DNA from: a virus
DNA length: 21,513 bases
IMG/VR virus record: IMGVR_UViG_3300030012_002484
Span: 1-21,513 of that record
Direction: 5' to 3' (one strand)
Part shown: positions 1-21,513 of the stretch, piece by piece
How positions within the stretch are numbered: position 1 is the first letter of the stretch
How the letters are laid out: the number at the start of each line of letters is the position of its first letter
Translations under genes and position numbers: made by a program
Notes under the pieces: model-generated
Database searches by the model: none
What the model was told of the DNA's origin: nothing
Seen by the model: the letters and a program-made list of their open reading frames with translations, nothing else

Positions 1-675
1 TTAAAAGGAGAACTTGGAGAACGCTTTGGAGAAAAGTGGACTATGAATGTATCTAAAGTACAAGATATATTTAAACTAGTCAGTTGTCAAAGAGAGGGCT
101 TCGATGCCTATATGCAACATTGCATAGAAAATGATATTGACTTTGCTGTTCAAAGAGGCGAAGATTATATTGATGAGTCAGAGCTTATGCTTTCTTTAGG
201 AAAAGAGGATATTACAATTACTCCAATACCTGTAGGGTCAAAAGGTAAAGTAGCAAAACTTATAACTGCAGCACTCATGATTTATACTGGATACGCTTTT
301 GTATCAGGGTCAGGTCAAGCCCTAGCAGCTGCAAATGCTAGTGCAGGAACATTAACAGCATTTAAAGTAGCAGGGTGGACTATGATTGCACTTGGAACAT
401 CTATGGGGCTTCAAACAATAGCAGAAATGATGATGCCAAGTCCAGACCAGGATAATGAAGAGGACTCTTATTTATTTAGCGGACCTCAAAATACGACAAT
501 ACAAGGAAGTGCAGTTCCTGTACTATATGGAGAAATGATAGTAGGAGGTGCAAATATTAATACAAGTTATATAGCCCATCAAGGGGGCACTAACTATGGA
601 CCAGGAATAAATATACGTCTTCCTCTCGGCGGATCTGAAGGCGCTGCAGACGTTGACATGCAAGTACCAGACTAA
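1..675 (+). CDS. Tail assembly protein I homologue (tail tip), 5' end outside the window
   Basis: The reading frame is open to the first base of the window. Residues encoded by bases 1-42 ([14 protein letters not shown], just before the ATG at 43) match the usual N-terminal signature of lambda-type tail assembly protein I, so the true start lies upstream and the ATG at 43 is an internal Met. After this beta-grasp-like N-terminal part comes an Ala/Gly-rich hydrophobic stretch at about visible codons 84-140, then a C-terminal part ending in a Gly-rich, acidic tail. In lambda, protein I is needed for tail-tip assembly with J, K and L. The stop overlaps the start of the J homologue by one base (TAATG), the expected I-J order. 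Family assignment rests on the N-terminal motif, the hydrophobic middle and gene order. Confidence 0.82.
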
Positions 676-3600
676 TGAAAAACGTATCAGAAGCAATATT
701 AGAAAGTATTAATAAACTTGCACAACAGGCAAGCAGTCGGTCTATGAGTGGTGAGACCAAACAGACTGCTGTAATATATGATGCACTCTCAGAAGGTGAA
801 GTAGAAGGCTTAGTAAATGGAGCAGCAAGTATTTATATAGATGGAACAAGACTAATTGATTTAGATGTTTATAAAACTTGTAATGAAATAAAAACAAGTG
901 CTTCAGTAAGTGCAGGAAGTAAAACAGTAACAGTTGGAAGTGGCGCATTAGACTTTGCAGATGTTGAAGGGGGCACTCGAAAAATACTAATAAGAGGAGC
1001 AGGAGCGCAAGGAAGTAGTATATTTAGTGCAACTGCAGGAACTACAACTCTTACCTCCTCTAGTAACTTTTTTACGTCATCTATGGCTTCAGGAACTATG
1101 ATGTCAGAATCTGCGGGAAGAATAGAGATTGCAGGAGCAGGAGAAGATGGACGACCTTATGTAGGTTACATTACAAAATTTACAAGTGCTACTTCAGTTG
1201 AAGTGCATCCTGCAATAAGCACTACAGTAAGTGGTGTAAGTGGAGGACTAGATCTTGTAAGTGTAATCGCTGCCTATGATACCTCAAATAATCAAGTTAC
1301 AACTACTACTGCAGCTACCACTACAGTTTCAGGTGTTGCTGCGACTTTAACTCCTCCTGTTCAGAATGTTACAAGCTACGGAACAACCACTCCTAAAACT
1401 AACTTTGAAGGCATACAGTATTCTTTCAGATCAGGAACAAAACATCAAAGTGCAATGCAACTATATGGAGGAAATCCTACTGCTAGTTTTGTACACAGCC
1501 CTGGAACACGACTTGATCAAAACCTTACTTTTGATAGTGTAAATGGTGTAAATGATACTGTAATTACATCAACTCAAATCGGTGTTCCAAATCCAGCAGA
1601 AACAGATCAAATAAAATACACACTAGAAATGCCACAGCTTTTTGCAATTAGTACAAAGTCTGGTAAGGAGTATAACTCTTGGGTAGAGTTCACTTGTGAT
1701 TTTGAATACTCTAGGGACTCAGGTTCCTCTTTTGAAAGTGTTAGGCTTACTGGTCCAAGCGATAGTGAAATTTTAAGTAGATCAGGTGGTTATGAATTTT
1801 TTAATGATCAAACTACTGTATCATTACATGATGGATTTATAGTTAATAAAACAAAGAAAAAATTTCTAGAAGAATACACACATAATATAGAACAGTATAA
1901 GCCTTTTGATACTTGGAGACTACGATTTCAAAGAGTAAATGAGCCAAACAAAGCTCAAGGTCATCATGATAACATGAATGAGGCTTTTATTAAGTTCGTT
2001 GAAGCACAGATAACAGATAAACTTAAATATCCACATACAGCATATGCAGGAGTTATGTTTAGTGCAAAAGATTTTAGTGGTCAACCAAAAAGAGGATACC
2101 ATATACGAGGTAAAAAGATACAAGTACCAACTAATTATTTTTGTCGTGAAGAGATTGACTCAAATGAATCTTCATACAAACGTCATGTTACAAATGGAAC
2201 TTCAGAAAGTAACTATCAAGACTGGGATGGTAATTTTAGAGGAGATGCCTCAACTTTTGCAGTAGGTCATGTAAACCATGATAAAGTCTACTGTAATAAT
2301 CCTGCGTGGGTATTTTATGATATTATACGAGATAAAAGGTATGGACTTGGAGATTTAGTAGAAGATGATTTTGTAGATAAGTATGCTCTCTATCAAATTG
2401 CAAGATATTGTGATGAGTTAGTAGATGATGGTAAAGGAGGTCTTGAGCCGCGCTTTACTTGTAATGTATATCTTAGCAAGCCTCAAGAAGCTTTTAAAGT
2501 ATTAAAAGATCTTGCCACAGTATTTCGAGGTATAACTTATTGGATGGATGGACAACTTGTTGCTGTACAAGATAGACCAAAAGAGCCCATTTATACATTT
2601 ACAACAGGTAATGTAATAAATGGAGAGTTTGTATATGAAAGCACTTCAGAAAGAATTCGAAAAAATCAAGTTGTTGTTAAGTGGAATGATCCTCTGGATC
2701 AGTTCAAAGCAAAATCTCATATCGTAGATGATGTAGATAATATTATTGAAACAAACAGAATAAATAGCACAAACATAACAGCTTTTGGTTGTACAAGTGA
2801 AGGACAAGCTCATAGAATCGGAAAATGGAGACTAGTAACTGATAAGGTAGAAACAGAACTTTGTAAATTTTCAACAGGACAAAATGCAGCATTTGTTCGA
2901 CCTGGCGATATTATAAATGTACAAGACTATACACTCGATGCTGTTCAATTTAGTGGTAGACTAAATACAGGTACAAGCACAACTCAAGTAACTTTAGATA
3001 GGTCTGTAACACTTGCAGCAAATACTGATTATAAACTTCACTTAGTATTCCCCTTAGGAGGTGCATACTTACAGGAAGATAAAGCAACAATTAATAGTGT
3101 AAACTATGTTCGAGGAGACTTAGTACTACTTGATGAAGATGGTGCTGCAATAGACACTCAAGAAAAAGCAGCAAATCTAAAAGATGATAGTAATAATCCA
3201 GTCTTAACTTCATGGAGTGAGAGCACTCGTGTTGAAACTAAGGCTATATCTACAGGGGCAGGAACAGCGAGCGTAATTCAAGTTAGTTCTGCTTTTTCTT
3301 CCGTTCCTGATTCAGAAGTAATTTGGGCAATTTCAGGAACAAAAAATAATACGGAGGTAGCAGGAAGTAAAAAACAATATCGTGTTATGGGTGTTACTGA
3401 TGATGGCGAAGGGATTTTTACTATTGGAGCGGCACTCTATAATGAAAACAAATATAATCTAGTAGAAAAAGAATATAAACTACTTGCAGATGCTAAATCA
3501 GAGCAGAATCTTGACTCAACTCGACTTGGAGAACTTGATAAAAGTATTCCTAGTCCTGAAGAAGCAACATTTAGTATTCAACAAGTATCAGGTGGAACAG

Positions 3601-6122
3601 ATACAGATGGAACAAATGAGAATGAAAGTCAGACAGGAGTACTAAAAGCAGTTATTGAGTGGACAAGTCCTATAGAGACAAAACTTACAAGTAATATTGC
3701 AACAAACGGAAGTACATTTATAAATGAAAATTTATCTGCAAATGATACATCACTTACTTTAGGCTCTGCTTTGAGTAGTAATACAGGCTTTGGTGTAATT
3801 GCAAGAGGAACTTCACAAGAGGAGATAGTCCAGTTTACAGCAAGAAGTGGAAATGATATTACTATAGTAAGAGGAGTGCTTGGAAGCACAGCAAGAGCTC
3901 ACAGTTCAGGAGTAAGTTTTACACAGCTTGAAACAGTTGAGAGTCCTTATACTGAACTATCTCACTTTGAGGTAGATCATACCTTTACTAATAGCACTAC
4001 AAGAACTGAAAAGTTTAAAAGAGAAACAGTACAGGGCGGAAGAACTAGTTTAGAGATATTAAATGTTTTAGGTGGTACACATAATGTAAGAGTTAGATGT
4101 GTAAATAATGTTGGTAGAGTATCTCAATGGGCAGTATTTGAAAATACTGTCAGATCTCCTGCACTTATACGAGCGACTTCAAAAGGTAACTTAGCGATTG
4201 GAGGAACAATAAGTTCTCCTATATCTATTACTAATGCAGGCGCTTATAACATAGCAAATAATATTTATACATTTACAGATGCAAGAGGGGAAGAATATAG
4301 TGTATCACAAGCTTCTGCAAGCCATGCTCAACGAACACAATCTTTTTCAGGTCTTAGTGTATCAAATGGTGTAGGTTATTCTCTTTTTGATACAAGCGCT
4401 TTTGCTTCTGATCCTTGGAGAGCTGTAGATCAGCATACAGATACAACTTTTCATATGGGTGGAGGAACTACAGCGGGTAGATTTACTTGGTGGAAAGATA
4501 TAGGAGCATCTTTAAATGGTTTAACATTAGTAACTGGAACTATAACAACTACATTAAATAGTAGTGTGGTTACAGGATCAGGAACTAGTTTTTTAAGTGA
4601 TTACTCAAATGGCGATTTAATTCGACTTGCAACTACAAATGATGGAGCAGAACAAACAGGTGCTTGGTATGGTTATGTAGACAAAGTAAGTAGTAATACG
4701 AGTCTAACAGTTCAAGGTGTTGTAACAAAAGCATTTTCAAGTAAGTTTGCATATAAACAAACATTTAAACCAGACTTTGCAAGTGATACAATCATCTCAA
4801 AAGTAACAAGAACAGGTACAAACTCTTATGTACTTGAACATTTTGGTAGTGTTCCCGGAGCAGACGGAGCCGATGGAGCACCCGGAGCAGACGGAGATAA
4901 TGCAAAAACAGCGTTCTTGGTTGCAGCAGACTATTCGATTGTCTATGATGCATCAGGAAGTAATCCAAGTGTTACAGGCGGAGGCTCTACAATTACACTT
5001 ACTGCAGTTGCTCAAGGATTTACAAATCCATTCTTTAAATTTACTGGTGATGGCATAAGTGATGAGACTAGCTTTACAGATGGAGCCACTAGTGTTAGCG
5101 ATACTTTTTCTTTTCCTGTACCTTCCAGTTTCTTCGCTACTCCTAAAACACTACGAGTAGGAATATCAGAAGCAGATCAAACTGAGGTAGCATTTGATAC
5201 AATAAGTATATTTGCGGTAAAACCAGGAGCTGCTGGAGATGATGGAACAGATGGTATGTCATTTATACTTTCAAATGAATCTCATGTATTTCCTGCAAGT
5301 GCCGCAGGCGTAGTAAGTAGCTTTTCGAACTCAGGAACAACAATCGAAGTTTTTGAAGGAGCAACTAATATACAATTTGATGGAAGTGGTACATCAAATG
5401 GAACTTTTAATGTTAGTGTAGCAAGTGCTACAAATATTACAGCAGGTGCAATTAGTGATGGTGGTGCTACTGCAACAGTTGCAGATCACTCAGGAGTTGC
5501 ATCAGGCACAGATTTAAGTTCTATCATTTACACAATCTCAGGAAAAAGAGCGGGTGGTACAAGCTTTACTGCAACTCGTCAGCAATCATTTTCTAAATCA
5601 AAAATAGGAGCGACTGGTAGTACAGGTGCTACAGGTGCTACAGGTGCTACAGGAGCAACAGGAGCTACTGGAGCCCCAGGAGCACAAGGACCTATTGGCC
5701 CAGATGGAGAGCCAGGACCAGCAGGACCAGCAGGAGCAGCTGGTGCAACAGGAGCAACAGGAGCAACTGGAGCAACTGGTGCTGCTGGAAGCGATGGTAT
5801 TACTATAGAAAATACTCAACCTTATATTTTATATTTATCTGGAGATGGAGGAGACACATTCCTTCCAAATAACACTAAAAGTTCAACAGTAACAATTAAA
5901 CAAGGAAGCACTACACTTGCACAAACAACTATAACCGCTTCTATTACTTCAACAGGGGGTACTGCAGGAAATATTGCATTAAGTTCTGGAAGTACAAGTG
6001 GAAATCCGACTATAACATTAAATCCCAATAACGCAACATTAGTAAAAGCAACAATAGTAAAAGGTAACGCAACTGCAACTGTTATTGCTGAAGCTACGAA
6101 TATGGGAGATTTAGGAAAATAA
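675..6122 (+). CDS. Tail tip host-specificity protein J homologue with collagen-like segments
   Basis: This is an 1815-residue central tail-hub and receptor-recognition protein; lambda J has 1132 residues. J-family landmarks are [14 protein letters not shown] (about 36-49), the segment around [14 protein letters not shown] (about 476-489), [18 protein letters not shown] (about 543-560), and the Phage-tail_3-like stretch with [16 protein letters not shown] (about 623-638). A fibronectin-III-like region follows (about 987-1158), split by an inserted beta domain. The C-terminal third carries Gly-X-Y runs at 1395-1409 (5 triplets), 1518-1526 (3) and 1645-1707 (21), separated by beta-rich domains and followed by a roughly 107-residue terminal domain likely to form the tip. 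Gly-X-Y runs fit a trimeric protein. The start overlaps the upstream stop, has no strong ribosome site, and is probably translationally coupled. Confidence 0.93.
5607..5795 (+). repeat. Collagen-like Gly-X-Y coding repeat in protein J
   Basis: Twenty-one uninterrupted Gly-X-Y triplets (residues 1645-1707 of protein J), mostly Gly-Ala-Thr with a Pro-rich centre. The DNA contains three perfect tandem copies of the 9-mer acaggtgct at 5622-5648, followed by near copies. It probably forms a short triple-helical stalk before the terminal domain. Shorter runs of the same kind lie at 4857-4901 and 5226-5252. Confidence 0.92.
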
Positions 6123-6124
6123 TT

Positions 6125-6748
6125 ATGAGCACATTTGATTGCACTTGTAGAGCCTACGGTCCTACACTTTACTCTAGAGGCTTACTAGAATCTGATGCAG
6201 AGCATGTACAAAGAATACTATATGATTGGGAGGATTGGCCTTTTACGGATGAGGAAGCAGAAAAGCTAACAAAGCAATGGGCCGCTCGAGATGCTAAGTG
6301 GCATGCGCCTTATTATGAGAGTATGCCAGAGACTCACTCTACAACTCTTTTTTGTTTAAAAAGCAATGATCTTCCTGTATTTATTAATAGATGTGCAAAT
6401 CTAGGAACTCACGTAGATCACTTTTTTAATGCAACAGCTCCTGAGTATAGATTACAAGGTATATATGCAGAAGCTAATCAACTTCTATTTAGGGGCGCAT
6501 GGGAGCATTACGGAATGAAAAGTATAACCATGAGAGAGCGAACAGATACAGGATCTCTTCAAGGTCATACACTAACAAGTGAAAAAACAGGAATAATTTT
6601 TGAAGGTATGCACAAACAATTAGCTCCCAGTTATAAAGAAACAACTACAACATATGCAGAGTGGGAAGCATATACAAAAACAGATCATTATAAGTCTTGG
6701 ATTATTAATTATACAATGTACCCTAAGTACCCTGGAGATCCCGCATGA
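6125..6748 (+). CDS. GNAT-like protein, divergent copy
   Basis: A 207-residue protein that looks like a GCN5-related N-acetyltransferase. The N-terminal part (YGPTLYSRGLLESDAEHV, then DWEDWPFTDEEAEKL at about 34-48) aligns by eye with the next gene (RGPNVYLRETIAADL; DWAQLPFSIDETKKV). The segment PEYRLQGIYAEA (residues 106-117) occupies the place of the acetyl-CoA pyrophosphate-binding motif (consensus R/Q-x-x-G-x-G/A), but its last Gly/Ala position is a Tyr, so binding may be weak or altered. The C-terminus is Lys/Tyr-rich. It sits two bases after protein J and overlaps the next gene at ATGA. The substrate is unknown: a virion protein, host glycan or small molecule are all possible. A purely structural role cannot be excluded. 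Confidence 0.6.
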   Translation: MSTFDCTCRAYGPTLYSRGLLESDAEHVQRILYDWEDWPFTDEEAEKLTKQWAARDAKWHAPYYESMPETHSTTLFCLKSNDLPVFINRCANLGTHVDHFFNATAPEYRLQGIYAEANQLLFRGAWEHYGMKSITMRERTDTGSLQGHTLTSEKTGIIFEGMHKQLAPSYKETTTTYAEWEAYTKTDHYKSWIINYTMYPKYPGDPA

Positions 6749-7341
6749 GCGTAGAGTTTATTAGAGGACCTAATGTATATCTTCGAGAAACAATCGCAGC
6801 AGACCTAACAAATATAAAAGATTGTTTAATTGATTGGGCTCAGCTGCCTTTTTCTATTGATGAAACCAAAAAAGTATTAAAAGGTGCATTAATTCAAATG
6901 AGATTTATTCGAAGACCTTACACTGACACTAGTAAGTTTACAGAAACGTTTACTGTATGTAAGGTATCTGATAATAGTTTTATAGGATTTATGCAGTATA
7001 AGATAGCTGAGGGACGAGAAGTAACTTTAAGATGGAATGCTTGTCTTCCTGCACTAAGAGGGCAAGGGCTAATGAATGAAGCTGCAAAGCTAATAGATGC
7101 AGCAGTCTTTACAGAACTAAAATGTAATACTTTTCATGATAAACAAGATGCTCCTTTTATTACAGGAGCAAGACCTTATCAAACTATAGTTGGTACAGAA
7201 CTAAGTAAGCGGTCAAATCGAACACTAAATATTGTAAAAGCAACTAAAGAGGATTATGATACTTGGGCAGCAGCAAATAGCAGTTCTATTCCAGCATACA
7301 CTTTCTCAGGGGGTAGTTATACTCCACCGCAAGATAGATAA
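6745..7341 (+). CDS. GNAT-family acetyltransferase-like protein
   Basis: A 198-residue protein with a clearer GNAT pattern. An N-terminal GPNVYLRETIAADLTNI start is typical of Rim-type acetyltransferases. A central strand region (FTVCKVSDNSFIGFMQYKI) is followed by WNACLPALRGQGLMNEA, in which R105-G-Q-G-L-M fits the acetyl-CoA-binding motif A. The following helix (AAKLIDAAVF) fits the fold. The last 40 residues or so, rich in Ser, Pro and Gly, are not part of the usual domain. The ATG overlaps the previous stop (ATGA), indicating coupled translation, and both proteins appear to be paralogues. This is the last gene before the only sizeable gap. Acceptor substrate is not readable from sequence. 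Confidence 0.68.
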   Translation: MSVEFIRGPNVYLRETIAADLTNIKDCLIDWAQLPFSIDETKKVLKGALIQMRFIRRPYTDTSKFTETFTVCKVSDNSFIGFMQYKIAEGREVTLRWNACLPALRGQGLMNEAAKLIDAAVFTELKCNTFHDKQDAPFITGARPYQTIVGTELSKRSNRTLNIVKATKEDYDTWAAANSSSIPAYTFSGGSYTPPQDR

Positions 7342-10439: not shown

Positions 10440-13400
10440 ATGGCATACATAGGTAAACGACCAGTAGATACTTTCCCAGCAAATAATGCAGTAACAGCTA
10501 GTATTATTTCTGCAAATGCTGTTGGAAGTTCAGAAATAGCAAATGGTGCAGTAGGTATTGCAGAGCTTGCAGCAAATGCTGTTACATCAGCAAAACTTGC
10601 ACAAAATAGTGTACTCACTAAACATATTGATGATGGTCAGGTAACTACAGATCAACTAGGGGCGGATGCTGTAACAGCAGCTAAATTAGCTGATGACGCA
10701 GTAGTTACTGCAAACATAGTAGACGCAAATGTAACTACAGCAAAGATAGCTGATGATAATGTAACTACAGCAAAAATAGCCGATTCAAATGTGACCACCG
10801 CAAAAATAGCAGATGATGCCGTGACTCTTGCTAAAATGGCTGGACTTGCTCGAGGTAAGATAATAGTCGGAGACTCGTCAGGCAATCCTTCTGCTTTAGC
10901 ACTTGGATCAAATGGTCAGATATTAAAATCAGATGGAACAGACTTAGTTTTTGCAGCAGACTCAGGATTATCAACAGAAGAAGTACAAGATATAGTAGGA
11001 GGAATGTTTAGTGGTAATACTGAAACTAACATTACCGCCACATATCAAGATAGTGATGGAACTATAGATTTAGTAGTGCCAGGCTCTTCAGAGTTAAATA
11101 GCACATCAGACCCTTCCTATCATACAGTTTTAGTTACTGTTGTAAGTTCGGGTGGAAATAAATATGCTCTTGATGGAAATACTCAAGCAATAGCAAAACT
11201 AACTCCAAGTGTTGTTTACAGATTTGATCAATCAGACTCATCAAACTCAGGACACCCACTTAGATTCTCAGAAACATCCAATGGAACACATGGTGGCGGT
11301 TCTGAAATATCTAGTGGAACAATAATTTATAACAAAGTAGGAACACCAGGAAGTTCAGGAGCTTATACAGAAGTCGCGTTTAAACAAGGCGCATTTGACT
11401 TATTATATTACTACTGTAGTAACCATAGTGGTATGGGGGCTGCAGCGGCAATCGCTGATGAACGAGCACTTACACAAACTCTTACAAATAAAACATTAAC
11501 AAGTCCAACTATTAATACACCTACAATAACTAGCCCAGCGGTTACAGGAACCGCTACTTTTGGAGGCTCAGATGGAGTAAGTATAGCACAAGGCTATGTT
11601 AAAATAAAAAATGGTGGAACACAATCATATGTAGACTTTTACTGTGAGTCATCAAATGCGCACTATGCTAGGCTACAAGCACCTGCTCACTCAGCGTTTA
11701 GCGGTAACATAACACTCACATTACCAGCAACTACAGATACATTAGTAGGTAGAACTACAACAGACACTTTAACAAATAAAACATTAACAAGCCCTAATGT
11801 AACAGGATTACAGCTTAGTGGAACAACTGTAACTTCTACAGCAGCAGAACTTAATTTATTAGATGGTGTTACTGCAACCACAGCCGAAATAAACCTATTA
11901 GATGGTGGAACCGCTGCTACAAGTACCACTCTTGTAAATGCGGATAGATTAATAATAAATGATAATGGCACTATGAAGCAAGTAGAGTTATCTGACCTTG
12001 CTACTTACATGGGTGATAATGTTACAATCAATCAAACGCAAACTGCATTAACTGTATCAGGAAATACAACTATTGGTGGAAACTTAACAGTTAATGGTAC
12101 AACTACAACTTTAGCTACTACTAATTCAGTAGTAGCAGATAGATTGATTGAGCTAGGAAATGGAACTACAGGAACTCCTGCAAACGATACAGGTATCGTT
12201 ATGGAAAGAGGAGATGCTGCAAATGCCTTTATGGGATTTGATGAAAGTGCAGACAAGTTTATAGTAGGAACAGGAACATTCACAGGAGCTTCTACAGGTG
12301 ATTTAAGCATCACAACAGGAACTCTTGTAGCAAATATAGAAGGAAACGTTACAGGTAATGTAACTGGTAATGTTTCAGGATCAGCAGGAAGTGCTACAGG
12401 TAATGCTGCTACAGCAACTGCGCTTCAAAATGCAAGAACAATACATGGTGTATCTTTTGATGGTACTGCAAATATTGATCTAACAGAGGTAGTACAAGAT
12501 ACTGTTGGTGCAATGTTTACAAGTAATACTGAATCAGGTATTACAGTAGCTTATCAAGATTCTGATGGAACAGTAGACTTTACAGTCGGTACACTTAATC
12601 AAGACACAACAGGAAATGCTGCAACTGCAACAGCTTTAGAAACTGCGAGAACAATAGGTGGAGTCTCATTTGATGGTACAGCTAATATTGATCTACCAGG
12701 TGTTAACTCTGCAGGAAACCAAAATACAACAGGTTCAGCGGCAACACTTACAACTGCTAGAGCGATTGCTTTGACAGGAGATGTAACAGGTAGTGCAAAC
12801 TTTGATGGATCGGCAGGTATATCAATAAGTTCTTCATTAGCTGCAGACTCAGTAGACTCAGCAGAAATTGCTGATGGTGCAATAGATACTGCTCATATTG
12901 CTGATGATCAGATAACTCAAGCAAAAATTGCTGATGATGCCGTTGGGGCAGATCAACTTGCTGCAAACTCTGTAGTAAGTGCATCAATCGTAAATGGAAG
13001 TATCGTAGCAGCAGATCTTGCAGATAACTGTATTACTTCTGCAAAAATTGTAAATGGTACTATTGCTACTGCAGATATTGCAAATAATGCAATTTTAACA
13101 CAGCATATAGACGACAATCAAGTAACAGGAGATCAAATAGGAGATGATGTTGTATTAAGTGGTACAGGAGCTGTTACTATTCCCAAAGGAACAACAGCAC
13201 AGAGACCAAGCGGTACAGCAGGAGAGTTTAGATTTAATACTACAACAGCAAAGTTTGAAGGACACAATGGAACTGAGTTTGGAGAAATCGGTGGAGGTAG
13301 TGGCACAAGTGCTTTCACAAGAAATGCATTTACTGGAGATGGTAGTACAACAGCATTTAGTTTATCATCTGCGCCTGATAGTGAAAACACTTTAATTGTA

Positions 13401-15395
13401 TTTATTGAAGGTGTTTTCCAAGACCAAGATGCTTACTCAGTTAGTGGCACAACACTTACTTTTGGAACTGCACCAGTAAATGGTCGTGGAATAATAGTTT
13501 ATAATGTAAAAGGAGCAGTAAGTGGTACAAATCTAAATCATAATCAATTTAGTGCAAATGGTAGTAGCACGCAGTTTACTTTGAACTTAAATCCTGAGCA
13601 TGAAAATAATACTATGGTATACATAGATGGTGTATATCAGAATAAAACAAGTTATTCAGTAAGCGGTACAACTTTAGATTTTGGATCAGGAAATGCACCA
13701 CCAAACGGTACAACTGTAGAGTGTATGATTATGAATCAAACTGATGTAAATGTACCAGTTGATGATACAATTTCAACAGCAAAATTACAAGATTCAGCAG
13801 TAACAGAAGCTAAAATCGCAGTAAATGCGGTAACATCTCTGAAGATAGCAGAAAACGCAATAACTGCAAGAGAGCTAGCTACAAATGCTATTGCTACACT
13901 ATACTTAGCAGATGACTCAGTAACAACAGTTAAGATAGCAGATAACGCTGTAACAGCAGCAAAAATAGGACAAGATGTGCTTACAGACCAAGTAAGAGGT
14001 ATTACATCAGCTGCATCAGTTGGCTCAGATGCTCTTACTATTGATGGTAGTGAGCACGTTACAATTCTAAATGACCTTATAGTTGATACTAGCACTTTAA
14101 AAGTTGACTCAGGTAATAATAGAGTAGGTGTAGGAACTACGAGTCCTGCGAGTGCTTTACACGTATCAGGAGGTGATAACACAGCAGCAAAACTAACTAT
14201 TACCAATACTGCCAATACAAACACTTATTCAATACACGCTCAAAACAACGCACAGTCGTTAAACTTTCAAGAAGATGGCACAAATGTTATGAGTTTAGCG
14301 ACAGGGGCTAAGTTAGGAATCGGAAGCTCACCAACTAATCTAACAGATGAAATTATAACGATTACAACTCCTGCTTCTGGTGGCGGTCAAGGTATAGCTT
14401 TCAAAAGACTTGATTCAAATAATGATCAAACTGTAGGATCAATAAGATTTAGTAATAATTCAACAGATAATTTGGCATTTATAAAAGTTAAAACAGATGG
14501 TGCTAATACTTCTTCTGCTATGCAGTTTTTTACTAATACAGGTTCAGGTTCAACAGAGCGGTTGCGTATTACTTCCAACGGGTTTATGTTATTTGACACA
14601 ACAGTAAATGGTCAAGGAACTGGACTAGTAGTAAATTCAACTATATCATCAAGTTCAACTACAGCAATAGAAATACAACAAGCGACCAATGGTGCAAATA
14701 AAGCAGCCGCCGCTTTTGGTGTGGCTATTGGTAATGGTGGTGAAAGCACAAACGCAGCAGACTTAACATTCCATGCAGCTACTGGAGGCTCTTTAGCAGA
14801 AAGAGCTCGTATTACTTCTGGTGGTGACTTTGTTGTAGCAACTACATCAACAGTAGGTAGTTTTTATAATGGAGCTAGTGGGATTGGCTTTGGATATAGT
14901 TCAGGAGGATATGGTGCTTTTGTTAGAAGCGGAGTAAATACCCCTTTATATGTTTCAACTTTAAGTACAGGTTCAGGTGGTTTCATAGAGTTTTTTCAAG
15001 GCACTTCTTCACGAGGAACAATAACATATAATGGCTCTGCTATGGTTTATGGAGGCACTTCAGACTATAGATTAAAAGAAAATATCACACCTATAGAAAA
15101 TGCACTAGCTAAAGTATCAGCTTTAAATCCTATAAATTTTAAATGGAAAGATAGTGGTGAAAGTTCAGAGGGCTTTTTAGCACATGAAGCACAAACTGTC
15201 GTACCTTATGCAGTAACAGGTGTTAAAGACGAAGTTGCTACAGATGAAAACTCACCTGAAGAAAAAGCAAATGGAGAACCATTGTATCAAACAGTTGATT
15301 ATGGAAAGATTACACCATTACTTGTAAAAGCAATCCAAGAACAACAAACAATTATAGACGATCTCAAAGCGAGAATAGAAACTTTAGAGGGTTAA
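10440..15395 (+). CDS. Long tail fibre with cupredoxin-like domain and S74 chaperone
   Basis: A 1651-residue fibre. Order of parts: MAYIGKRP start; 10-residue repeats 16-135; an ARGKII...GDSSGNP collar (about 137-178); a cupredoxin-like domain 227-335; TLTNKTLTSP elements and a VKIKNGGTQSYVDFYC segment; TSTAAELNLLDG elements; two ARTIxGVSFDGTANIDL copies; a second 10-residue block 803-902; two tandem beta domains (about 964-1027 and 1036-1101); a third block 1109-1178; GVGTTSP-type beta segments; and S74 domain 1541-1651 with S1541, D1542, R1544, K1546. S74 domains help trimer folding and then self-cleave before the Ser using a Ser-Lys pair. The end (QEQQTIIDDLKARIETLEG) is coiled coil. Another ATG at 10436 is out of frame; AGGGG before 10440 supports this start. 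Confidence 0.9.
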   Translation: MAYIGKRPVDTFPANNAVTASIISANAVGSSEIANGAVGIAELAANAVTSAKLAQNSVLTKHIDDGQVTTDQLGADAVTAAKLADDAVVTANIVDANVTTAKIADDNVTTAKIADSNVTTAKIADDAVTLAKMAGLARGKIIVGDSSGNPSALALGSNGQILKSDGTDLVFAADSGLSTEEVQDIVGGMFSGNTETNITATYQDSDGTIDLVVPGSSELNSTSDPSYHTVLVTVVSSGGNKYALDGNTQAIAKLTPSVVYRFDQSDSSNSGHPLRFSETSNGTHGGGSEISSGTIIYNKVGTPGSSGAYTEVAFKQGAFDLLYYYCSNHSGMGAAAAIADERALTQTLTNKTLTSPTINTPTITSPAVTGTATFGGSDGVSIAQGYVKIKNGGTQSYVDFYCESSNAHYARLQAPAHSAFSGNITLTLPATTDTLVGRTTTDTLTNKTLTSPNVTGLQLSGTTVTSTAAELNLLDGVTATTAEINLLDGGTAATSTTLVNADRLIINDNGTMKQVELSDLATYMGDNVTINQTQTALTVSGNTTIGGNLTVNGTTTTLATTNSVVADRLIELGNGTTGTPANDTGIVMERGDAANAFMGFDESADKFIVGTGTFTGASTGDLSITTGTLVANIEGNVTGNVTGNVSGSAGSATGNAATATALQNARTIHGVSFDGTANIDLTEVVQDTVGAMFTSNTESGITVAYQDSDGTVDFTVGTLNQDTTGNAATATALETARTIGGVSFDGTANIDLPGVNSAGNQNTTGSAATLTTARAIALTGDVTGSANFDGSAGISISSSLAADSVDSAEIADGAIDTAHIADDQITQAKIADDAVGADQLAANSVVSASIVNGSIVAADLADNCITSAKIVNGTIATADIANNAILTQHIDDNQVTGDQIGDDVVLSGTGAVTIPKGTTAQRPSGTAGEFRFNTTTAKFEGHNGTEFGEIGGGSGTSAFTRNAFTGDGSTTAFSLSSAPDSENTLIVFIEGVFQDQDAYSVSGTTLTFGTAPVNGRGIIVYNVKGAVSGTNLNHNQFSANGSSTQFTLNLNPEHENNTMVYIDGVYQNKTSYSVSGTTLDFGSGNAPPNGTTVECMIMNQTDVNVPVDDTISTAKLQDSAVTEAKIAVNAVTSLKIAENAITARELATNAIATLYLADDSVTTVKIADNAVTAAKIGQDVLTDQVRGITSAASVGSDALTIDGSEHVTILNDLIVDTSTLKVDSGNNRVGVGTTSPASALHVSGGDNTAAKLTITNTANTNTYSIHAQNNAQSLNFQEDGTNVMSLATGAKLGIGSSPTNLTDEIITITTPASGGGQGIAFKRLDSNNDQTVGSIRFSNNSTDNLAFIKVKTDGANTSSAMQFFTNTGSGSTERLRITSNGFMLFDTTVNGQGTGLVVNSTISSSSTTAIEIQQATNGANKAAAAFGVAIGNGGESTNAADLTFHAATGGSLAERARITSGGDFVVATTSTVGSFYNGASGIGFGYSSGGYGAFVRSGVNTPLYVSTLSTGSGGFIEFFQGTSSRGTITYNGSAMVYGGTSDYRLKENITPIENALAKVSALNPINFKWKDSGESSEGFLAHEAQTVVPYAVTGVKDEVATDENSPEEKANGEPLYQTVDYGKITPLLVKAIQEQQTIIDDLKARIETLEG
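10485..10844 (+). repeat. 10-residue shaft repeat, block 1 (12 copies)
   Basis: Twelve in-register 30-bp units encoding the pattern xAVTxAKIAD (residues 16-135 of the long fibre). Units at 10728-10817 are nearly identical in DNA. The regular hydrophobic spacing fits a thin trimeric beta shaft. Confidence 0.9.
11118..11444 (+). other. Cupredoxin-like domain inside the long fibre
   Basis: Residues 227-335 carry a beta-rich segment with NKYALDGNTQAIAKLTP, SVVYRFDQSDSSNSGHPLRF, a THGGGSE loop, then LLYYYCSNHSGMG. H272, C326, H329 and M332 have the order and C-x2-H-x2-M spacing expected of a type 1 copper centre. That the protein binds copper is inference. Confidence 0.6.
12846..13145 (+). repeat. 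10-residue shaft repeat, block 2 (10 copies)
   Basis: Ten 30-bp units (residues 803-902 of the long fibre), for example GAIDTAHIAD and DQITQAKIAD. They lie mid-protein, which suggests a second shaft or a fusion junction. Confidence 0.85.
13329..13745 (+). repeat. Two tandem beta domains in the long fibre
   Basis: Copies at about residues 964-1027 and 1036-1101 share the pattern GST-F-L, then an I(E/D)GVxQ motif, then YSVSGTT-L-FG, then NG. The first has FIEGVFQDQDAYSVSGTTL and the second YIDGVYQNKTSYSVSGTTL. They probably decorate the shaft between repeat blocks 2 and 3. Confidence 0.8.
13764..13973 (+). repeat. 10-residue shaft repeat, block 3 (7 copies)
   Basis: Seven 30-bp units (residues 1109-1178 of the long fibre), such as NAVTSLKIAE and DSVTTVKIAD. 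The copy number equals that of the separate fibres at 15397, 17092 and 21023. Confidence 0.85.
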
Positions 15396-15396
15396 T

Positions 15397-17088
15397 ATGA
15401 CAACAACTAAAATACCACCAGAGTTCCTTGAAGCCCTTACTGGGTCTGAGATTAGTGATGGATCAATAGGAGCTGCTGATATAGCAGATGGAGCAATCAC
15501 TACTGCAAAGCTTGCCGCAAACGCTATAAACGCTACAAAGCTTCCAGATAATGTTATAACTGCAACTCATATTCCTGATGGATTGATAACTGGGAGTCAT
15601 ATTGCAAATGATACAGTAACTGCAACTCAAATGGCTGATAACTCTATCGGCACAGACCAGCTTGCAGGTATCGCACGTGGTAAGATAATTTATGGAGATT
15701 CAAATGGTGATCCTCAACTACTTGCTATTGGATCAAGCGGTACAGTATTAACGTCAGATGGCACAGATATATCATGGGCAAGTGGAGGTGTTGATGGAAT
15801 ATCTAGTTCAGCAGATGCAACAGCTATCACTATTGATAGTTCTGAAAACTCTACGTTTGCAGGAAATGTTACATCACCTAGATTTATATTAAATGGAACT
15901 GACAGTGCAACTACTCGGTATATTTTTACAGATAATACAAATACTGGAGATGGCAGGCTCGTTATACAATCTGGAGGAGGTTCAGCAGGGTATGGTGGTG
16001 CTATCAATCTGTATTCTCATTCCCATGCTTCTAAGCCAGGTGATGTTGTGGCAGGTATTTCATCAGGGTCAGGTGGTGCATTTCGTGTAAATACAAGTGG
16101 TATTGATAATGGAAGTGATGTTTTTGTAGCTAAAGCGGATGGAAAGGTAGGTATAGGAACTGATAGTCCTTCTAGAGATTTCACTTTTGTTAGTGAAGGT
16201 AGTACTAATGGATTTGAAATAAAGTCAAATGACGAGCGTGTACATCTTATGGCTGCTGGTGGCTCTAGTGGGTCAGCTGCTGATGATGGTTATTATGCAC
16301 AATATTCTGGAGGTACAGGAAAAACTCAACTTTGGGCTAATGGAACTAATTTTTTAAATGGTGGAGATGTAGGAATTAATACTGATAGTCCTGCAGCAAA
16401 ACTACATGTCAAATCAGCTGGAGCTTCTAGCGAAAAAGCCTTTCATGTTACAGAAAGTAATAATAATGATGTTTTTACTGTGCAGGGTGGGGGTAGAGTA
16501 ACTGTAAGATACTATCCGTTAGTAATAGGTAATGATTCGGGACACTCAGTAACGTCAGGTGCTAGACTATTTATAGATGGTACAACCTATGACACTATTT
16601 TTGATAGCGTAGGTCGTTTATTGATAGGCACTACAAGTGTGTATTCAGATAGTAATGATGCTATGGTTGTATCTGGGGGTAGGTCTAATTTTACAGCTTC
16701 AGGACATACATCAGGATCTTTTAATAGGCAAACAAATACAGGAGAAATAGTTACTTTTTTATATAATGGTTCTGGTAAAGGTTCAGTATCTACTGATGGC
16801 TCAAACGTATCTTTCAACACCTCATCTGATGCAAGACTTAAAAATATTTTAGGTGAGTCAAAAGGTCTTGATATTATTAGTCAACTCAAACCAGTAAACT
16901 TTGAATGGAAAGAGTCTGGTAAAATTCAAGATGGTTTGATTGCACAGGAAGTAGAACCCTTAATACCTGAGGCTATAAATATTAATGAGCAATCAGGGTA
17001 CTATGAAATGGACTATTCCAAAATAGTGACACCGCTTGTCAAAGCAATCCAAGAATTAGAGGCAAGGATAAAAGAATTAGAAAAGTAA
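15397..17088 (+). CDS. Tail fibre with S74 chaperone, second of the array
   Basis: A 563-residue fibre. After a unique start (TTTKIPPEFLEALTG) come seven 10-residue repeats (22-91), then the collar IARGKIIYGDSNGDPQLLA (about 92-110) and SDGTDISWA, shared with the long fibre. The body has GISSSADATAITIDSSEN (134-151) and at least two GIGT/GINTDSP-type beta segments, which give the variable distal part. The S74 domain begins at about 477 with S477, D478, R480, L481, K482, followed by FEWKESG, GLIAQEVEPLIP and a coiled-coil end (AIQELEARIKELEK). The gene begins one base after the long-fibre stop with GAGGG as ribosome site. Likely a trimeric receptor-binding fibre. Confidence 0.88.
   Translation: MTTTKIPPEFLEALTGSEISDGSIGAADIADGAITTAKLAANAINATKLPDNVITATHIPDGLITGSHIANDTVTATQMADNSIGTDQLAGIARGKIIYGDSNGDPQLLAIGSSGTVLTSDGTDISWASGGVDGISSSADATAITIDSSENSTFAGNVTSPRFILNGTDSATTRYIFTDNTNTGDGRLVIQSGGGSAGYGGAINLYSHSHASKPGDVVAGISSGSGGAFRVNTSGIDNGSDVFVAKADGKVGIGTDSPSRDFTFVSEGSTNGFEIKSNDERVHLMAAGGSSGSAADDGYYAQYSGGTGKTQLWANGTNFLNGGDVGINTDSPAAKLHVKSAGASSEKAFHVTESNNNDVFTVQGGGRVTVRYYPLVIGNDSGHSVTSGARLFIDGTTYDTIFDSVGRLLIGTTSVYSDSNDAMVVSGGRSNFTASGHTSGSFNRQTNTGEIVTFLYNGSGKGSVSTDGSNVSFNTSSDARLKNILGESKGLDIISQLKPVNFEWKESGKIQDGLIAQEVEPLIPEAININEQSGYYEMDYSKIVTPLVKAIQELEARIKELEK
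15460..15669 (+). repeat. 10-residue shaft repeat (7 copies) in the second fibre
   Basis: Seven 30-bp units covering residues 22-91, for example GAITTAKLAA, NVITATHIPD and DTVTATQMAD. Confidence 0.85.
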
Positions 17089-17091
17089 ACA

Positions 17092-19215
17092 ATGTCAATA
17101 ACAAAAGTACAAAATGAACTTATCGCAGTAAATGCCATTAGTGGAACACTAATAGCAGATAATGCTGTTACATCTGTACATATTGCAAAAAATAATGTAG
17201 GAACTGTACAGATAGCAGAAAACTCTGTAACTTCAGTATCTATAGCGCAAAATAATGTAACAGGAGTTCAGATAGCAAATAATGCTGTAACTTCTACTCA
17301 ATTAGCAGACAATGCTGTAACCGCAACAAAGATTCCAGATGGAACTCAGCTTGCGTTAGGCAATACAACAATTTCTGGCAATATCTCTGTTGATAGTGGA
17401 ACAATCAAACTAGACGGCAACTATCCTACAGGCACAAACAACGTTGCTATGGGTAATACTGCACTTGATAGTGTGGAGAGTGGTGGTGTAAATAACACAG
17501 CCATAGGTGATAAATCACTTACAACTCTAACTACAGGTGATGGCAATACAGCTTTAGGAGCTAGTTCATTAGAATTTACTACGACTGGTTCAAATAATAC
17601 TGCAATGGGACTTGATGCCTCACGAGCAATCACTACAGCAGAAGAAAACGTTGCAGTTGGATATTCAGCTATGACGTCAACTACTACAGGAAATGTAAAT
17701 GTAGCTGTAGGCTCTAATGCTCTTGCAGATAATACTACAGGTACATCTAATGTTGCAGTAGGTAGAGAAGCCTTACACGCAAATACTACAGCAGACAGCA
17801 ACGTAGCAGTCGGTAAACATGCTATGAGAGCAAACACTACAGGTGGTTCAAACGTAGCAGTTGGAAAAGATTCTTTATTAGTTAACACCACAGGGGGTAC
17901 AAATACTGCAATAGGTGCAGCAGCTATGAGTGCTAACACGACAGGTGCAAGCAATACCTCTTTGGGTTTTAATACTCTAGCTTCCAACACAACAGCATCA
18001 AATAATACAGCTATTGGAAATAGTGCTTTAGTATTAAACACTACAGGTGCAGGAAATACTGCTGTTGGAGCTGAAGCTTTAGATGGTATTACTACTGCAA
18101 GTGAATCAACTGCTGTAGGTTATCGAACTTTAAGTGCTGCTGTTACTGGAGTAAGAAATCAGGCTTTTGGAACAGAAGCAATGTTACTTACAACGTCTGG
18201 AGCCGATAATGCTGCGGTTGGTAAATCTGCTTTGCAAAATAATACATCAGGAAGCTATAACACAGGAATAGGCAACTACGCTTTGAAATCTAACACTACT
18301 GCAAGTAATAACACAGCACTTGGTTACTATGCTTTGCAAACTAATACAACAGCAACATACAACCTAGCCATAGGCTCATTGGCTTTAAGTACAATTACAG
18401 GAGGCTCATATAATATAGCTATTGGTAATAATGCTTCACAGTATCAATCCACCACAAGTGGTAATGTCTTTAATATAGCTATTGGTCATTACTCTATGCA
18501 AACATCTACTACAGGATATGACAATACAGCAGTTGGTTACGCTTCTTTATTAGACCTGACAACCGCAACCGGTAATACAGTTTTTGGTAATTATGCAGGA
18601 GAGAATATAACTACTGGTTATTCTAACTGTTTGATAGGTCGTAGTTCAGGTGATGTAATAACTACGGGATATGCTAACACGTTAGTAGGTTATGGAACTA
18701 ACGTAAGTGCTTATAGTGGATACCATCAAATTGTTTTAGGTAATGGTATATTAAGTCATGGTAATAACACATTTACATTTGGTAAAGGCACTGGTAACGA
18801 TAGAGTTTATAATAATTTTGATTCAAACGCTTCTTGGACAAGAGTATCTGATGAAAGATACAAAGAAAACATTACACCTAATACAGATTGTGGTTTAGCT
18901 TTTATAAATGATTTGAAGCCTATAACTTTTACATGGAGAGCTAAAGCAGACATAGACAAAATACTGCCTGACTATGATGAAAAAGCATTAGAACCAGAAT
19001 ATAAAGAAAAAATGTATGGCTTGATAGCACAAGAAGTTAAATCATCGCTTGATAAGCATGGCATTGAAAACTTTGGTGGTTGGGATGTAGAAGAAAGTTC
19101 AGGTATACAATCTATATCACAAGAGATGTTTATACATCCTCTTATCAAAGCAGTACAAGAACTTTCTGAGCAAGTAGAATCACTTAAAAAAGAGGTGGAA
19201 ACCTTAAAAGGATAA
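17092..19215 (+). CDS. Tail fibre with YadA-like repeats and S74 chaperone
   Basis: A 707-residue fibre. It starts MSITKVQNELIAVNAI, a start shared in form with the next two genes, and continues with seven 10-residue repeats (14-83). Residues 117-545 are about 25 copies of a 17-residue repeat, NTAIGxxALxxNTTGxx, resembling the beta-roll head of trimeric autotransporter adhesins such as YadA, although YadA's unit is shorter (about 14). A short linker leads to an S74 domain at 586 with S586, D587, R589, Y590, K591. This copy has Tyr in place of the usual Leu and a longer insert rich in Asp, Glu and Lys before GLIAQEV. The C-terminus is coiled coil (SEQVESLKKEVETLKG). Only a weak ribosome site is seen, 3 nt after the previous stop, so coupling is likely. 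Confidence 0.88.
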   Translation: MSITKVQNELIAVNAISGTLIADNAVTSVHIAKNNVGTVQIAENSVTSVSIAQNNVTGVQIANNAVTSTQLADNAVTATKIPDGTQLALGNTTISGNISVDSGTIKLDGNYPTGTNNVAMGNTALDSVESGGVNNTAIGDKSLTTLTTGDGNTALGASSLEFTTTGSNNTAMGLDASRAITTAEENVAVGYSAMTSTTTGNVNVAVGSNALADNTTGTSNVAVGREALHANTTADSNVAVGKHAMRANTTGGSNVAVGKDSLLVNTTGGTNTAIGAAAMSANTTGASNTSLGFNTLASNTTASNNTAIGNSALVLNTTGAGNTAVGAEALDGITTASESTAVGYRTLSAAVTGVRNQAFGTEAMLLTTSGADNAAVGKSALQNNTSGSYNTGIGNYALKSNTTASNNTALGYYALQTNTTATYNLAIGSLALSTITGGSYNIAIGNNASQYQSTTSGNVFNIAIGHYSMQTSTTGYDNTAVGYASLLDLTTATGNTVFGNYAGENITTGYSNCLIGRSSGDVITTGYANTLVGYGTNVSAYSGYHQIVLGNGILSHGNNTFTFGKGTGNDRVYNNFDSNASWTRVSDERYKENITPNTDCGLAFINDLKPITFTWRAKADIDKILPDYDEKALEPEYKEKMYGLIAQEVKSSLDKHGIENFGGWDVEESSGIQSISQEMFIHPLIKAVQELSEQVESLKKEVETLKG
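17131..17340 (+). repeat. 10-residue shaft repeat (7 copies) in the third fibre
   Basis: Seven 30-bp units covering residues 14-83, for example NAVTSVHIAK, NNVGTVQIAE and NAVTATKIPD. Confidence 0.85.
17440..18726 (+). repeat. 51-bp tandem coding repeat (about 25 copies), YadA-like
   Basis: A 17-residue unit, N-T-A-(I/V/L)-G-x-x-A-L-x-x-N-T-T-G-x-x, recurs about 25 times without a break. All but two units are exactly 17 residues; the exceptions have 18 (first) and 20 (twentieth). Copies diverge towards both ends, and central copies are most alike. The fold expected is a trimeric left-handed beta roll. Confidence 0.93.
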
Positions 19216-19218
19216 ATA

Positions 19219-21021
19219 ATGGCAATAACAAAAGTAACAACAGATGTAATAGTTGATGATGCTATCACAAGTCCAAAGGTAGCTGATGATTTGGCTTTGA
19301 GTGGCAATCCTACAGCTACAACACAAAGTGCTGGAAATAATACTACAAGACTATCTACAACTGCTTTTGTAACTACCGCCGTAGCTACTAAAGCACCACT
19401 ATCAGCACCTACATTTACAGGAGATGTTGATATAGATGCTACTGATGACTTGAGGCTTAGATTTTTAAGGGGAAGTACTTTTAAAGGTGGCATACAAGTC
19501 CCGACATCAACAGGTGATATGATTTCTGGCTCAGCAGTAGATGACCTAGCAATAAGATCGCAAGGTAATCTTCTTTTCTCAAGTGGCGGTAATACTGAGC
19601 GTATGCGTATTGATTCCTCTGGAAACATAGGCATAGGGATTACAAGCCCTAGTAGTATGTTGCACTTATTTGATGGCGGTACAGATACTAGTATTAGAAT
19701 ACAAGCAGCCGCAACAGCCGACAATACTTCAAGTATTACATTTGATTCAAGACTTGCTGATAATACTAATAAACAAGTATTTTTAAAAGCATACAGAGGC
19801 AATATAAGTTTTACAGGCGATAGTGGATATGGAAATGTAGGCATAGGAACTACAAATCCGCAACACCCATTCCATGTTTATTTAACAAATGGTGAACTCG
19901 CTATGTTTGGCAGTAACCAAATGAACTCAGTAGGACAGTATGCAGGTATTGGATTAGGTCAAGTCTTAGCTAATAACACTACGTATCAAAAAGTGGCAAT
20001 AGTTGCAGAGGGTAGAGATAGTGGAAGCTATGTTTCAAATTTACACTTTTTAGTTGATACCGCAGCTGATGGTAATAGTGCGGTTTTATCTGATTCTAAA
20101 ATGATGATTTCAGGTGGTAATGGCTATGTCGGCATAGGAACTACAGATCCTGATGAGCTTTTAGAGATAGTAAGTGATGATCCAAGAATAAGAATAAGAG
20201 ACAACACAGCAGGAGGAGGTGTAGGTAATGGTGGAAAAATTGAGTTTATGGGTCATCATGCAGGTGCATCTGATGGTAAGAGAGTATTTGCTGAGGTTCA
20301 TGGATTAAAACAAAATTCAACTGGTGGCGATACTAAAGGTGAAATGATTTTTAAAGTCAATAAAGGTTCAGCTTCTACCACAGAGGTATTCAGACTAGAA
20401 TCAAGTGGCGCTTTAGCTGTGGGAGACTCAAGTAACCGTAGACCACTTGCAGCACCAACTTATATGGGTTATGCAAACTATTATAGATCTACTGTTATTG
20501 GGTCAACTTCTGCAAGTTATGGTACTGATGCTGTAGGAGCGGTTACTCTCTCTTTCAATTACGACCCATCAGGCAATACTAGTGGATCCTTTAGTGGTGA
20601 TGGAAGTGAGGTTTTCTTTAGGAGATCGACTAGTTTTAGAACTCCTAACTCTGCTAATAATGGAATACATTTACAGTTTACTATGACTGATGGAGTAACT
20701 AGTGGTGATTTTAATGATACATCTGATAGAAATTTAAAACAAAATATAAAGTCAATAACAAATGGTTTTGATGTAATTAAAGACTTGAATCCAGTCCTAT
20801 TTGATTGGAAAGATGCAGATAAGGGTAATGGGCTAGGAGGTTTTATAGCTCAAGAGGTAGAAACAGTATTACCTAATGATGTGTTAGGAGAAGATTATAC
20901 AGAGGGTGAGAGAGGTCAACCTTTAACCGACGGTAAAAGTATAAACACAGTATCTATCGTGGCTCACTTAGTAAAAGCACTTCAAGAAGTAGAAGCAAGA
21001 GTAAAAGAATTAGAGAAATAA
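19219..21021 (+). CDS. Tail fibre with S74 chaperone, fourth of the array
   Basis: A 600-residue fibre. The N-terminus MAITKVTTDVIVDDAITSPKVADD keeps the array's shared start but only one 10-residue unit (14-23). It then switches to a module common in Stf-type side fibres: NPTATTQSAGNNTTRL, STTAFVTTAVATKAPLSA, PTFTG (about 30-70). The body has several GIGTTNP / GIGTTDP / GIGITSP beta segments. The S74 domain starts at 502 (S502, D503, N505, L506, K507), with FDWKDADKGNGLGGFIAQEV and a coiled-coil end (ALQEVEARVKELEK). AAGGAT ahead of 19219, overlapping the previous gene's end, is the ribosome site. The different proximal module suggests an exchange upstream of a conserved chaperone. Confidence 0.87.
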   Translation: MAITKVTTDVIVDDAITSPKVADDLALSGNPTATTQSAGNNTTRLSTTAFVTTAVATKAPLSAPTFTGDVDIDATDDLRLRFLRGSTFKGGIQVPTSTGDMISGSAVDDLAIRSQGNLLFSSGGNTERMRIDSSGNIGIGITSPSSMLHLFDGGTDTSIRIQAAATADNTSSITFDSRLADNTNKQVFLKAYRGNISFTGDSGYGNVGIGTTNPQHPFHVYLTNGELAMFGSNQMNSVGQYAGIGLGQVLANNTTYQKVAIVAEGRDSGSYVSNLHFLVDTAADGNSAVLSDSKMMISGGNGYVGIGTTDPDELLEIVSDDPRIRIRDNTAGGGVGNGGKIEFMGHHAGASDGKRVFAEVHGLKQNSTGGDTKGEMIFKVNKGSASTTEVFRLESSGALAVGDSSNRRPLAAPTYMGYANYYRSTVIGSTSASYGTDAVGAVTLSFNYDPSGNTSGSFSGDGSEVFFRRSTSFRTPNSANNGIHLQFTMTDGVTSGDFNDTSDRNLKQNIKSITNGFDVIKDLNPVLFDWKDADKGNGLGGFIAQEVETVLPNDVLGEDYTEGERGQPLTDGKSINTVSIVAHLVKALQEVEARVKELEK

Positions 21022-21022
21022 T

Positions 21023-21513
21023 ATGGCATTAACAAAAATATCATCAAACTTAGTTGCAGACGATGCAATCGTTACAGGCAAAATTGCTGACGGCGGTGTT
21101 GCGACTGCAGACTTAGCCGCAAATGCAGTTACTACTGCAAAGATAGCACAAAATAATGTAACTGCTCATCATATAGCAGATGGTAGTATTACAACTACAC
21201 AGCTTGGAGCAGATGCGGTTACAGCTGCTAAACTGGCGGATGATGCCGTATCAGAAGAACACTTAGATAAAACTATAATATCTGATATGACACAAGTTAC
21301 TCCTGTAGCGGGAGACTTTGTACTTATTGGAGATACAAGTGATTCAAATAATCTAAAGAAAGCACCAATCAGCGGAATAACTGCACTAGCAACCGTTTCA
21401 GGTATATCTTCTAGCGCAGATGCAACCGCTATAACCATTGATAGTTCTGAGAATGTAGGCGTAGGAGCTACGAGTCCATCGGCAGGAGCAGTAGGTGGAA
21501 AAGTTTTACACGT
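21023..21513 (+). CDS. Tail fibre, fifth of the array, 3' end outside the window
   Basis: The frame from the ATG at 21023, one base after the previous stop, stays open to the window edge, giving 163 visible residues. It starts MALTKISSNLVADDAI, like the two fibres upstream. It has seven 10-residue repeats (14-83), including GADAVTAAKLADDAV, identical to a stretch of the long fibre. It then has DFVLIGDTSDSNNLKKAPIS (about 97-116) and GISSSADATAITIDSSEN (127-144), identical to residues 134-151 of the second fibre. The last visible part is a GVGATSP beta segment. A distal receptor-binding part and an S74 domain are expected beyond the window but not seen. Confidence 0.85.
   Translation, partial: MALTKISSNLVADDAIVTGKIADGGVATADLAANAVTTAKIAQNNVTAHHIADGSITTTQLGADAVTAAKLADDAVSEEHLDKTIISDMTQVTPVAGDFVLIGDTSDSNNLKKAPISGITALATVSGISSSADATAITIDSSENVGVGATSPSAGAVGGKVLH
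21062..21271 (+). repeat. 10-residue shaft repeat (7 copies) in the fifth fibre
   Basis: Seven 30-bp units covering residues 14-83, for example NAVTTAKIAQ, NNVTAHHIAD and DAVTAAKLAD. Confidence 0.85.

Follow-up and report, generated by a model that had tools for sequence, protein, structure and literature searches.

A predicted type 1 copper site in a cupredoxin-like domain of a phage tail fibre, with relatives in marine virion and bacterial surface proteins

Does the tail fibre of this virus contain a copper-binding domain of the blue-copper kind, and if so, what might such a domain do on a virion? The question arises from a 21,513-nucleotide stretch of viral DNA (IMG/VR record IMGVR_UViG_3300030012_002484), hereafter called the window, in which an earlier note had placed a possible cupredoxin domain at residues 227-335 of a 1651-residue fibre. 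The open reading frame is present as described, and residues 227-335 correspond exactly to window positions 11118-11444. The homology edges of the domain lie slightly outside these limits, at residues 221-341. His272, Cys326, His329 and Met332, which had been named as ligands, and His284 in a neighbouring loop all occupy the positions given for them. The features discussed below are as follows.

10440-15395, + strand: tail fibre open reading frame, 1651 amino acids (open reading frame list, domain profiles)
10977-11060, + strand: upstream fibre module EEVQDIVGGMFSGNTETNITATYQDSDG, residues 180-207, which adjoins the cupredoxin in several relatives too
11100-11462, + strand: cupredoxin-like domain, residues 221-341 (homology edges, AlphaFold2 model, Foldseek matches to PDB cupredoxins)
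11253-11255, + strand: His272, first predicted metal ligand, in GHPL (SGHPLRF), at the start of model strand 54-57
11289-11291, + strand: His284, in the GTHGGGSE loop (row alignment)
11415-11417, + strand: Cys326, predicted thiolate ligand, at the end of model strand 101-106
11424-11426, + strand: His329, predicted metal ligand (conservation)
11433-11435, + strand: Met332, predicted axial ligand, in Cys-x2-His-x2-Met spacing (conservation)
12486-12569, + strand: second copy of module EEVQDIVGGMFSGNTETNITATYQDSDG, at residues 683-710 of this fibre, not followed by a cupredoxin
Residues 1541-1592, + strand: Peptidase_S74 intramolecular chaperone at the fibre C-terminus (PF13884, 47.1 bits)

The fibre gene and its cupredoxin-like module

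The 1651-residue product matches several tail-fibre PHROGs in a profile search, and domain profiles place two DUF4183-type stretches within it. Judged by its profiles, the gene product is a phage tail fibre with an S74 chaperone, a member on both counts. Since a lambda-type tail assembly gene and a homologue of the central fibre J are found upstream of this gene, the window has the look of a siphovirus-type tail module. The J homologue (675-6122, phrog_31) has a GATGAT collagen-like repeat near its C-terminus. Between this J-type fibre and the side fibres, positions 6125-7341 encode P0007 and P0010, adjoining diverged paralogues (23% identity, E 1e-12), the latter of which weakly matches GNAT acetyltransferases. 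Four successive fibre genes with S74 chaperones, P0001, P0003, P0004 and P0005, occupy positions 10440-21513 together with the beginning of a fifth; NTAxGxxAL..TTG repeats make up P0004. Cysteine is as rare in these fibre genes as had been claimed, with four in the 1651-residue fibre (326, 402, 864 and 1095), two in P0004 and none in P0003, P0005 or P0006.

The cupredoxin-like domain sits in the N-terminal fifth of the fibre. Given that one gene contains the EEVQDIVGGMFSGNTETNITATYQDSDG module both with and without a cupredoxin, the domain is a separable cassette. The domain's flanks vary among relatives and tandem cupredoxin copies occur, which, together with the recurrence of EEVQDIVGGMFSGNTETNITATYQDSDG without a cupredoxin, shows that the cassette is exchangeable.

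Fold and conservation of the predicted metal site

An AlphaFold2 model of window positions 11100-11462, built with 36 sequences, has nine strands, a mean pLDDT of 88.4 and a pTM of 0.84. When the model was compared to the PDB with Foldseek, all 50 of the 50 matches listed were cupredoxins. The top match was rusticyanin (E 2.8e-4, probability 1.00); the others included multicopper oxidases and laccases, three-domain nitrite reductase, a purple cupredoxin from Nitrosopumilus and pseudoazurins, one of which bears an amicyanin loop. The Nitrosopumilus protein (5fc9) gave the best mutual TM-score, 0.56 by query and 0.69 by target. TM-scores are moderate overall, about 0.4-0.58 by query, and therefore speak for membership of the fold rather than close kinship. 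Among viral models, 63 matched at E <= 1e-3, with marine phage virion proteins foremost. Membership of the cupredoxin superfamily, as a Greek-key beta sandwich of about eight strands, is thus well supported by the model, and the complete small beta sandwich that had been read from the strands and loops is recovered as a cupredoxin sandwich. In the model, His272 opens one strand and Cys326 closes another, while the loop that leads into the last strand contains both His329 and Met332, a placement that is consistent, by strand order, with the cupredoxin layout.

The window domain matches no Pfam or NCBIfam model: it does not reach the curated cut-off of PF00127 (Copper-bind, 21.2 bits), has no match to PF13473 (Cupredoxin_1) and is not a member of the NCBIfam plastocyanin family TIGR02656. 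Its relatives match weakly, 7 of 36 to PF00127 (best E 0.04) and 2 of 36 to TIGR02656 (best E 0.027). A single-sequence search of the PDB with the domain returned no matches, a profile search of the PDB returned only chance-level ones (antibodies beginning at E 0.03 and, at E 1.2, a two-domain laccase), and a profile comparison with plastocyanin aligned only the Cys-His loop. Three cellular relatives, L124 (25.8 bits), L122 (24.6 bits) and L260 (28.1 bits), match both the phage profile and, above its cut-off, PF00127; on these scores, they are a bridge between the phage family and PF00127. A set of Flavobacteriaceae domains aligns with the phage profile over 97 columns (probability 98.6%, E 7e-16), a probability that measures likeness and not independent discovery, the set having been collected with the phage profile itself.

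All four ligands are present in 72 of 81 non-redundant rows drawn from phages and bacteria, in agreement with the earlier reading of a type 1 blue-copper ligand order in this fibre. Across the 81 rows the most conserved columns are Phe262, His272, Tyr260, Met332, Cys326 and His329, so that the ligands make up four of the top six. The nine departing rows comprise one with Gln in place of the axial Met, one without both His residues and seven that lack at least two ligands. In a larger set, 192 of 209 distinct domain sequences are complete, and most of the incomplete ones either run off the end of their contig or lack several ligands at once. The Cys-x2-His-x2-Met loop spacing occurs in 235 domains. 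The ligand Cys is the sole Cys of its domain in 194 of the 209, and for this reason it is not half of an intradomain disulfide.

Because a search peptide that holds the Cys could bias such counts, we scanned with a peptide free of ligand residues and ran three pattern scans of viral contigs, each with one of Cys, His or Met left free. The three pattern scans found the same 80 loci among the matches listed, and, likewise among the matches listed, the freed position was Cys at 82 of 82 sites, His at 82 of 82 and Met at 82 of 82; the conservation figure for His272 rests on the aligned rows. Homologues do not, then, freely lose these residues. The conservation of the ligands rules out a chance spacing of His, Cys and Met, and the order found, a first His and then, from the penultimate strand onward, Cys, His and Met, is that of a predicted type 1 copper site. 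A ligand set kept in domains whose partners differ so widely speaks for a functioning metal site. His284 occurs in 68 of 74 rows of the window's own subfamily and is missing from other subfamilies; since whole subfamilies do without it, a fifth ligand at this position is ruled out, and His284 is probably no ligand.

Some copies depart from the complete site. Axial Met to Gln is a known variation of type 1 sites, and it occurs naturally in L109 (G003:C3:180819-181211), which keeps the Cys and both His residues. Copies with a dead site are found as second copies in T4-GC_350-type proteins and in S-SZBM1, L101, L108 and L121, and the fold would appear usable without metal, given that some virion copies lack the site. 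The T4-GC_350-type virion proteins of Kyanoviridae (L241, L243, L245, L248 and L250) have domains at residues ~240-365 and 775-1040, one copy being site-complete and the second, split by an insert, lacking most or all ligands. Read from its ligands, each such protein is a natural holo/apo pair within one virion protein.

Relatives in viruses and bacteria

A tblastn search with the domain matched 47 phage records, and wherever the source is named it is a marine host or seawater: phages of Synechococcus, Prochlorococcus, Pelagibacter and Methylophilales, and marine metagenomic phages. In IMG/VR, at least 585 relatives were confirmed from 600 candidate stretches among the matches listed, using a profile-derived scan peptide from the YRFDQSD region that contains no ligand residue. 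YYYCxxHSGM segments do occur in marine phages, as the earlier note had stated. Searching a plasmid collection with the domain gave no match. Isolate genomes hold up to four copies at E <= 1e-3 (P-SSM2, ACG-2014h), and the cultured phages in the family include P-SSM2, S-TIM5, Pelagibacter phage Mosig and Methylophilales phage Melnitz. Viral copies with an annotation belong to tail fibres, to a tail spike or to structural proteins of the virion; several adjoin baseplate genes, and a copy in S-TIM5 is close to the portal gene. The domain is contained, unnamed, in tail-fibre and baseplate wedge subunit PHROG profiles, which gives a likely identity, that of a cupredoxin domain, to a segment that recurs without a label in several tail-fibre PHROGs.

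A cellular, plastocyanin-like subtype of cupredoxin also occurs in virion proteins, in the P-SSM2 tail spike PSSM2_298 (L239, from 11166 onward) and at residues 673-790 of a MED4-213 protein (L247). A 189-kb phage-like contig in a Prochlorococcus single-cell genome (G003:C3) has, besides four cupredoxin matches of the fibre type, a distinct plastocyanin-like gene at 110907-111155.

The cellular copies look extracytoplasmic from the proteins that contain them. One Prochlorococcus copy lies in a 406-residue protein with DUF4214 repeats beside a gamma-glutamyltransferase-like gene, and a SAR116 copy, followed by an RTX-like stretch, adjoins an EF-Tu gene (both neighbours named from sequence reading). 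Secreted-looking proteins of the Prochlorococcus group with an N-terminal cupredoxin (L096:5941-7158, L098, L100, L255 and L257) bear DUF4214 repeats in the two scanned, L096 and L255. In three genomes of the marine Flavobacteriaceae group, giant surface proteins (L084:718-12282, L111 and L112), with open frames of 5494, 5553 and 5987 residues, each carry one intact copy, which in L084 stands among Ig-like repeats. Other bacterial copies form the C-terminal ends of CHRD-type or related lipoproteins.

In a domain tree, which has few columns and mostly weak forks, the secreted Prochlorococcus copies fall within a clade of phage-fibre copies with an SH-aLRT of 100, and strongly supported branches require at least four changes of label for the cellular group. 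Four of the Prochlorococcus-group copies form a single group inside that clade. Judging by the nested position of the Prochlorococcus copies and the label changes, phages and cells have probably passed the module to one another.

Possible roles and comparison with known copper proteins

With fold, ligand set, conservation, modularity and spread established computationally, the role of the domain is a matter of hypothesis. We judge it probable that the window domain is an extracellular cupredoxin module, exchangeable and copper-binding, whose part is to stiffen the fibre and to provide a surface for metal-dependent docking. An intact predicted type 1 set of two His, one Cys and one Met would be housed in one exchangeable module of a trimeric fibre, and the module would belong to a marine extracellular cupredoxin family found in virion proteins of phages as well as in surface or secreted proteins of bacteria. 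The apo-domain would fold in the host cytoplasm with its predicted site pre-organised. Loading would probably follow lysis, since virions are assembled in the cytoplasm, where there is little free copper; the metal, presumably copper, would then be taken up from seawater or cell debris. Once bound, it would tie the last loop to the sandwich and so rigidify an Ig-like arm at the side of the fibre, and this arm would add contacts with the host surface or with neighbouring parts of the fibre. We infer that the role is stabilising or adhesive rather than one of electron transfer.

A more specific proposal is that the copper-loaded domain is a bait, or docking ligand, for a copper-uptake receptor in the host outer membrane, a copper Ferrojan horse. 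Secreted azurin docks on OprC, a TonB-dependent copper transporter of Pseudomonas (PMC6907878), HxH motifs in the fibres of marine phages have led to the proposal of an iron Trojan or Ferrojan horse (PMC11705849), the family includes secreted-looking bacterial members, and 47 of the 47 phage records come from marine bacteria or seawater as far as named. However, the position of the window domain, within the N-terminal fifth of the fibre, is away from the C-terminal chaperone and the usual region of receptor tips, and the domain is found also in baseplate-region proteins and near the S-TIM5 portal gene, so we consider this proposal unlikely. Somewhat less likely again is the broader reading in which the virions of marine phages bear copper-loaded cupredoxins, acquired from or in common with the secreted copper-binding proteins of their hosts, and dock by means of them on copper-uptake receptors; if it were true, ocean virus particles would be a pool of protein-bound copper. 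Adhesion that needs no copper, in which the fold would act as a binding arm of Ig-like form and the metal residues would be relics, has a precedent in ephrins, cupredoxins that lost their copper as they gained a binding role (PMC6485061), and the site-dead copies in T4-GC_350-type proteins, S-SZBM1, L101, L108 and L121 fit it. Relics would be expected to drift, however, whereas the ligand set is complete in 72 of 81 divergent rows and losses are usually joint; copper-free adhesion leaves the retention of the site in the remaining copies unexplained, and it seems to us quite improbable.

The ligand set matches that of electron-transfer cupredoxins and the nearest solved structures are redox proteins, as would suit electron exchange or oxidant quenching near the virion or host surface. 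Yet a free virion has no plausible partner or electron chain, closed type 1 sites are poor catalysts and the domain is found with very different partners, which makes a redox or protective role very unlikely. There is scarcely any likelihood that the site holds another metal (zinc, silver or mercury) or is apo in nature. Cys/His/Met sites do take up other soft metals in vitro and free copper in seawater is very low, but two His, a Cys and a Met at cupredoxin spacing are the classic ligands of copper, and L109 changes the axial Met to Gln alone, a substitution known from type 1 sites. If the preferred reading of a stabilising, copper-binding docking module is correct, copper may be present on the exterior of ocean viruses.

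The fold and the site are of a known kind, and it is the setting, a large family of marine virion-fibre and bacterial-surface proteins, that is apparently unreported in the literature searched. In that literature, which covered few subscription papers, we found no report of such a domain in phages, whether in virions, tail fibres or structural proteins, or in a marine setting. Phage fibres with iron sites are known (PMC11705849), and a whole redox-metal domain common in marine viruses would add copper to the interactions of ocean viruses with metals.

Among known systems, the small blue-copper proteins (amicyanin, pseudoazurin and plastocyanin; PF00127) have in common with the window domain the fold and the order His, Cys-x2-His-(x2-4)-Met. 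The loop of amicyanin is spaced Cys-x2-His-x2-Met, an x2/x2 loop like that of the fibre. In contrast to these proteins, which are free electron carriers, the window domain is embedded in a fibre, scores under the PF00127 cut-off and has HP rather than HN at the first ligand, and its family has conserved FDQSD and GTPGxxGAYT segments. Rusticyanin and the cupredoxin domains of multicopper oxidases and nitrite reductase are its best Foldseek matches, and the H-P at its first ligand recalls the HPxHLH motif that multicopper oxidases carry; unlike these domains, with which identity is ~8-18%, it has a single site and lacks trinuclear and type 2 ligands. The C-terminal domains of Flavobacteriaceae lipoproteins (CHRD and others) have a similar site, GHPF...FYNCEFHGxM, but are lipoprotein tails rather than parts of fibres and lack the THGGG loop. 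Cyanophage plastocyanin (petE) is, like the window domain, a phage-encoded cupredoxin, yet it is no part of the virion and acts outside it as a free photosynthetic electron carrier. Finally, the HxH tip of T4 gp37 and the marine HxH fibres have a metal-binding virion fibre in common with the window (PMC11705849), but they bind iron through paired HxH motifs, whereas the window fibre has a predicted Cys/Met site within a folded cupredoxin domain.
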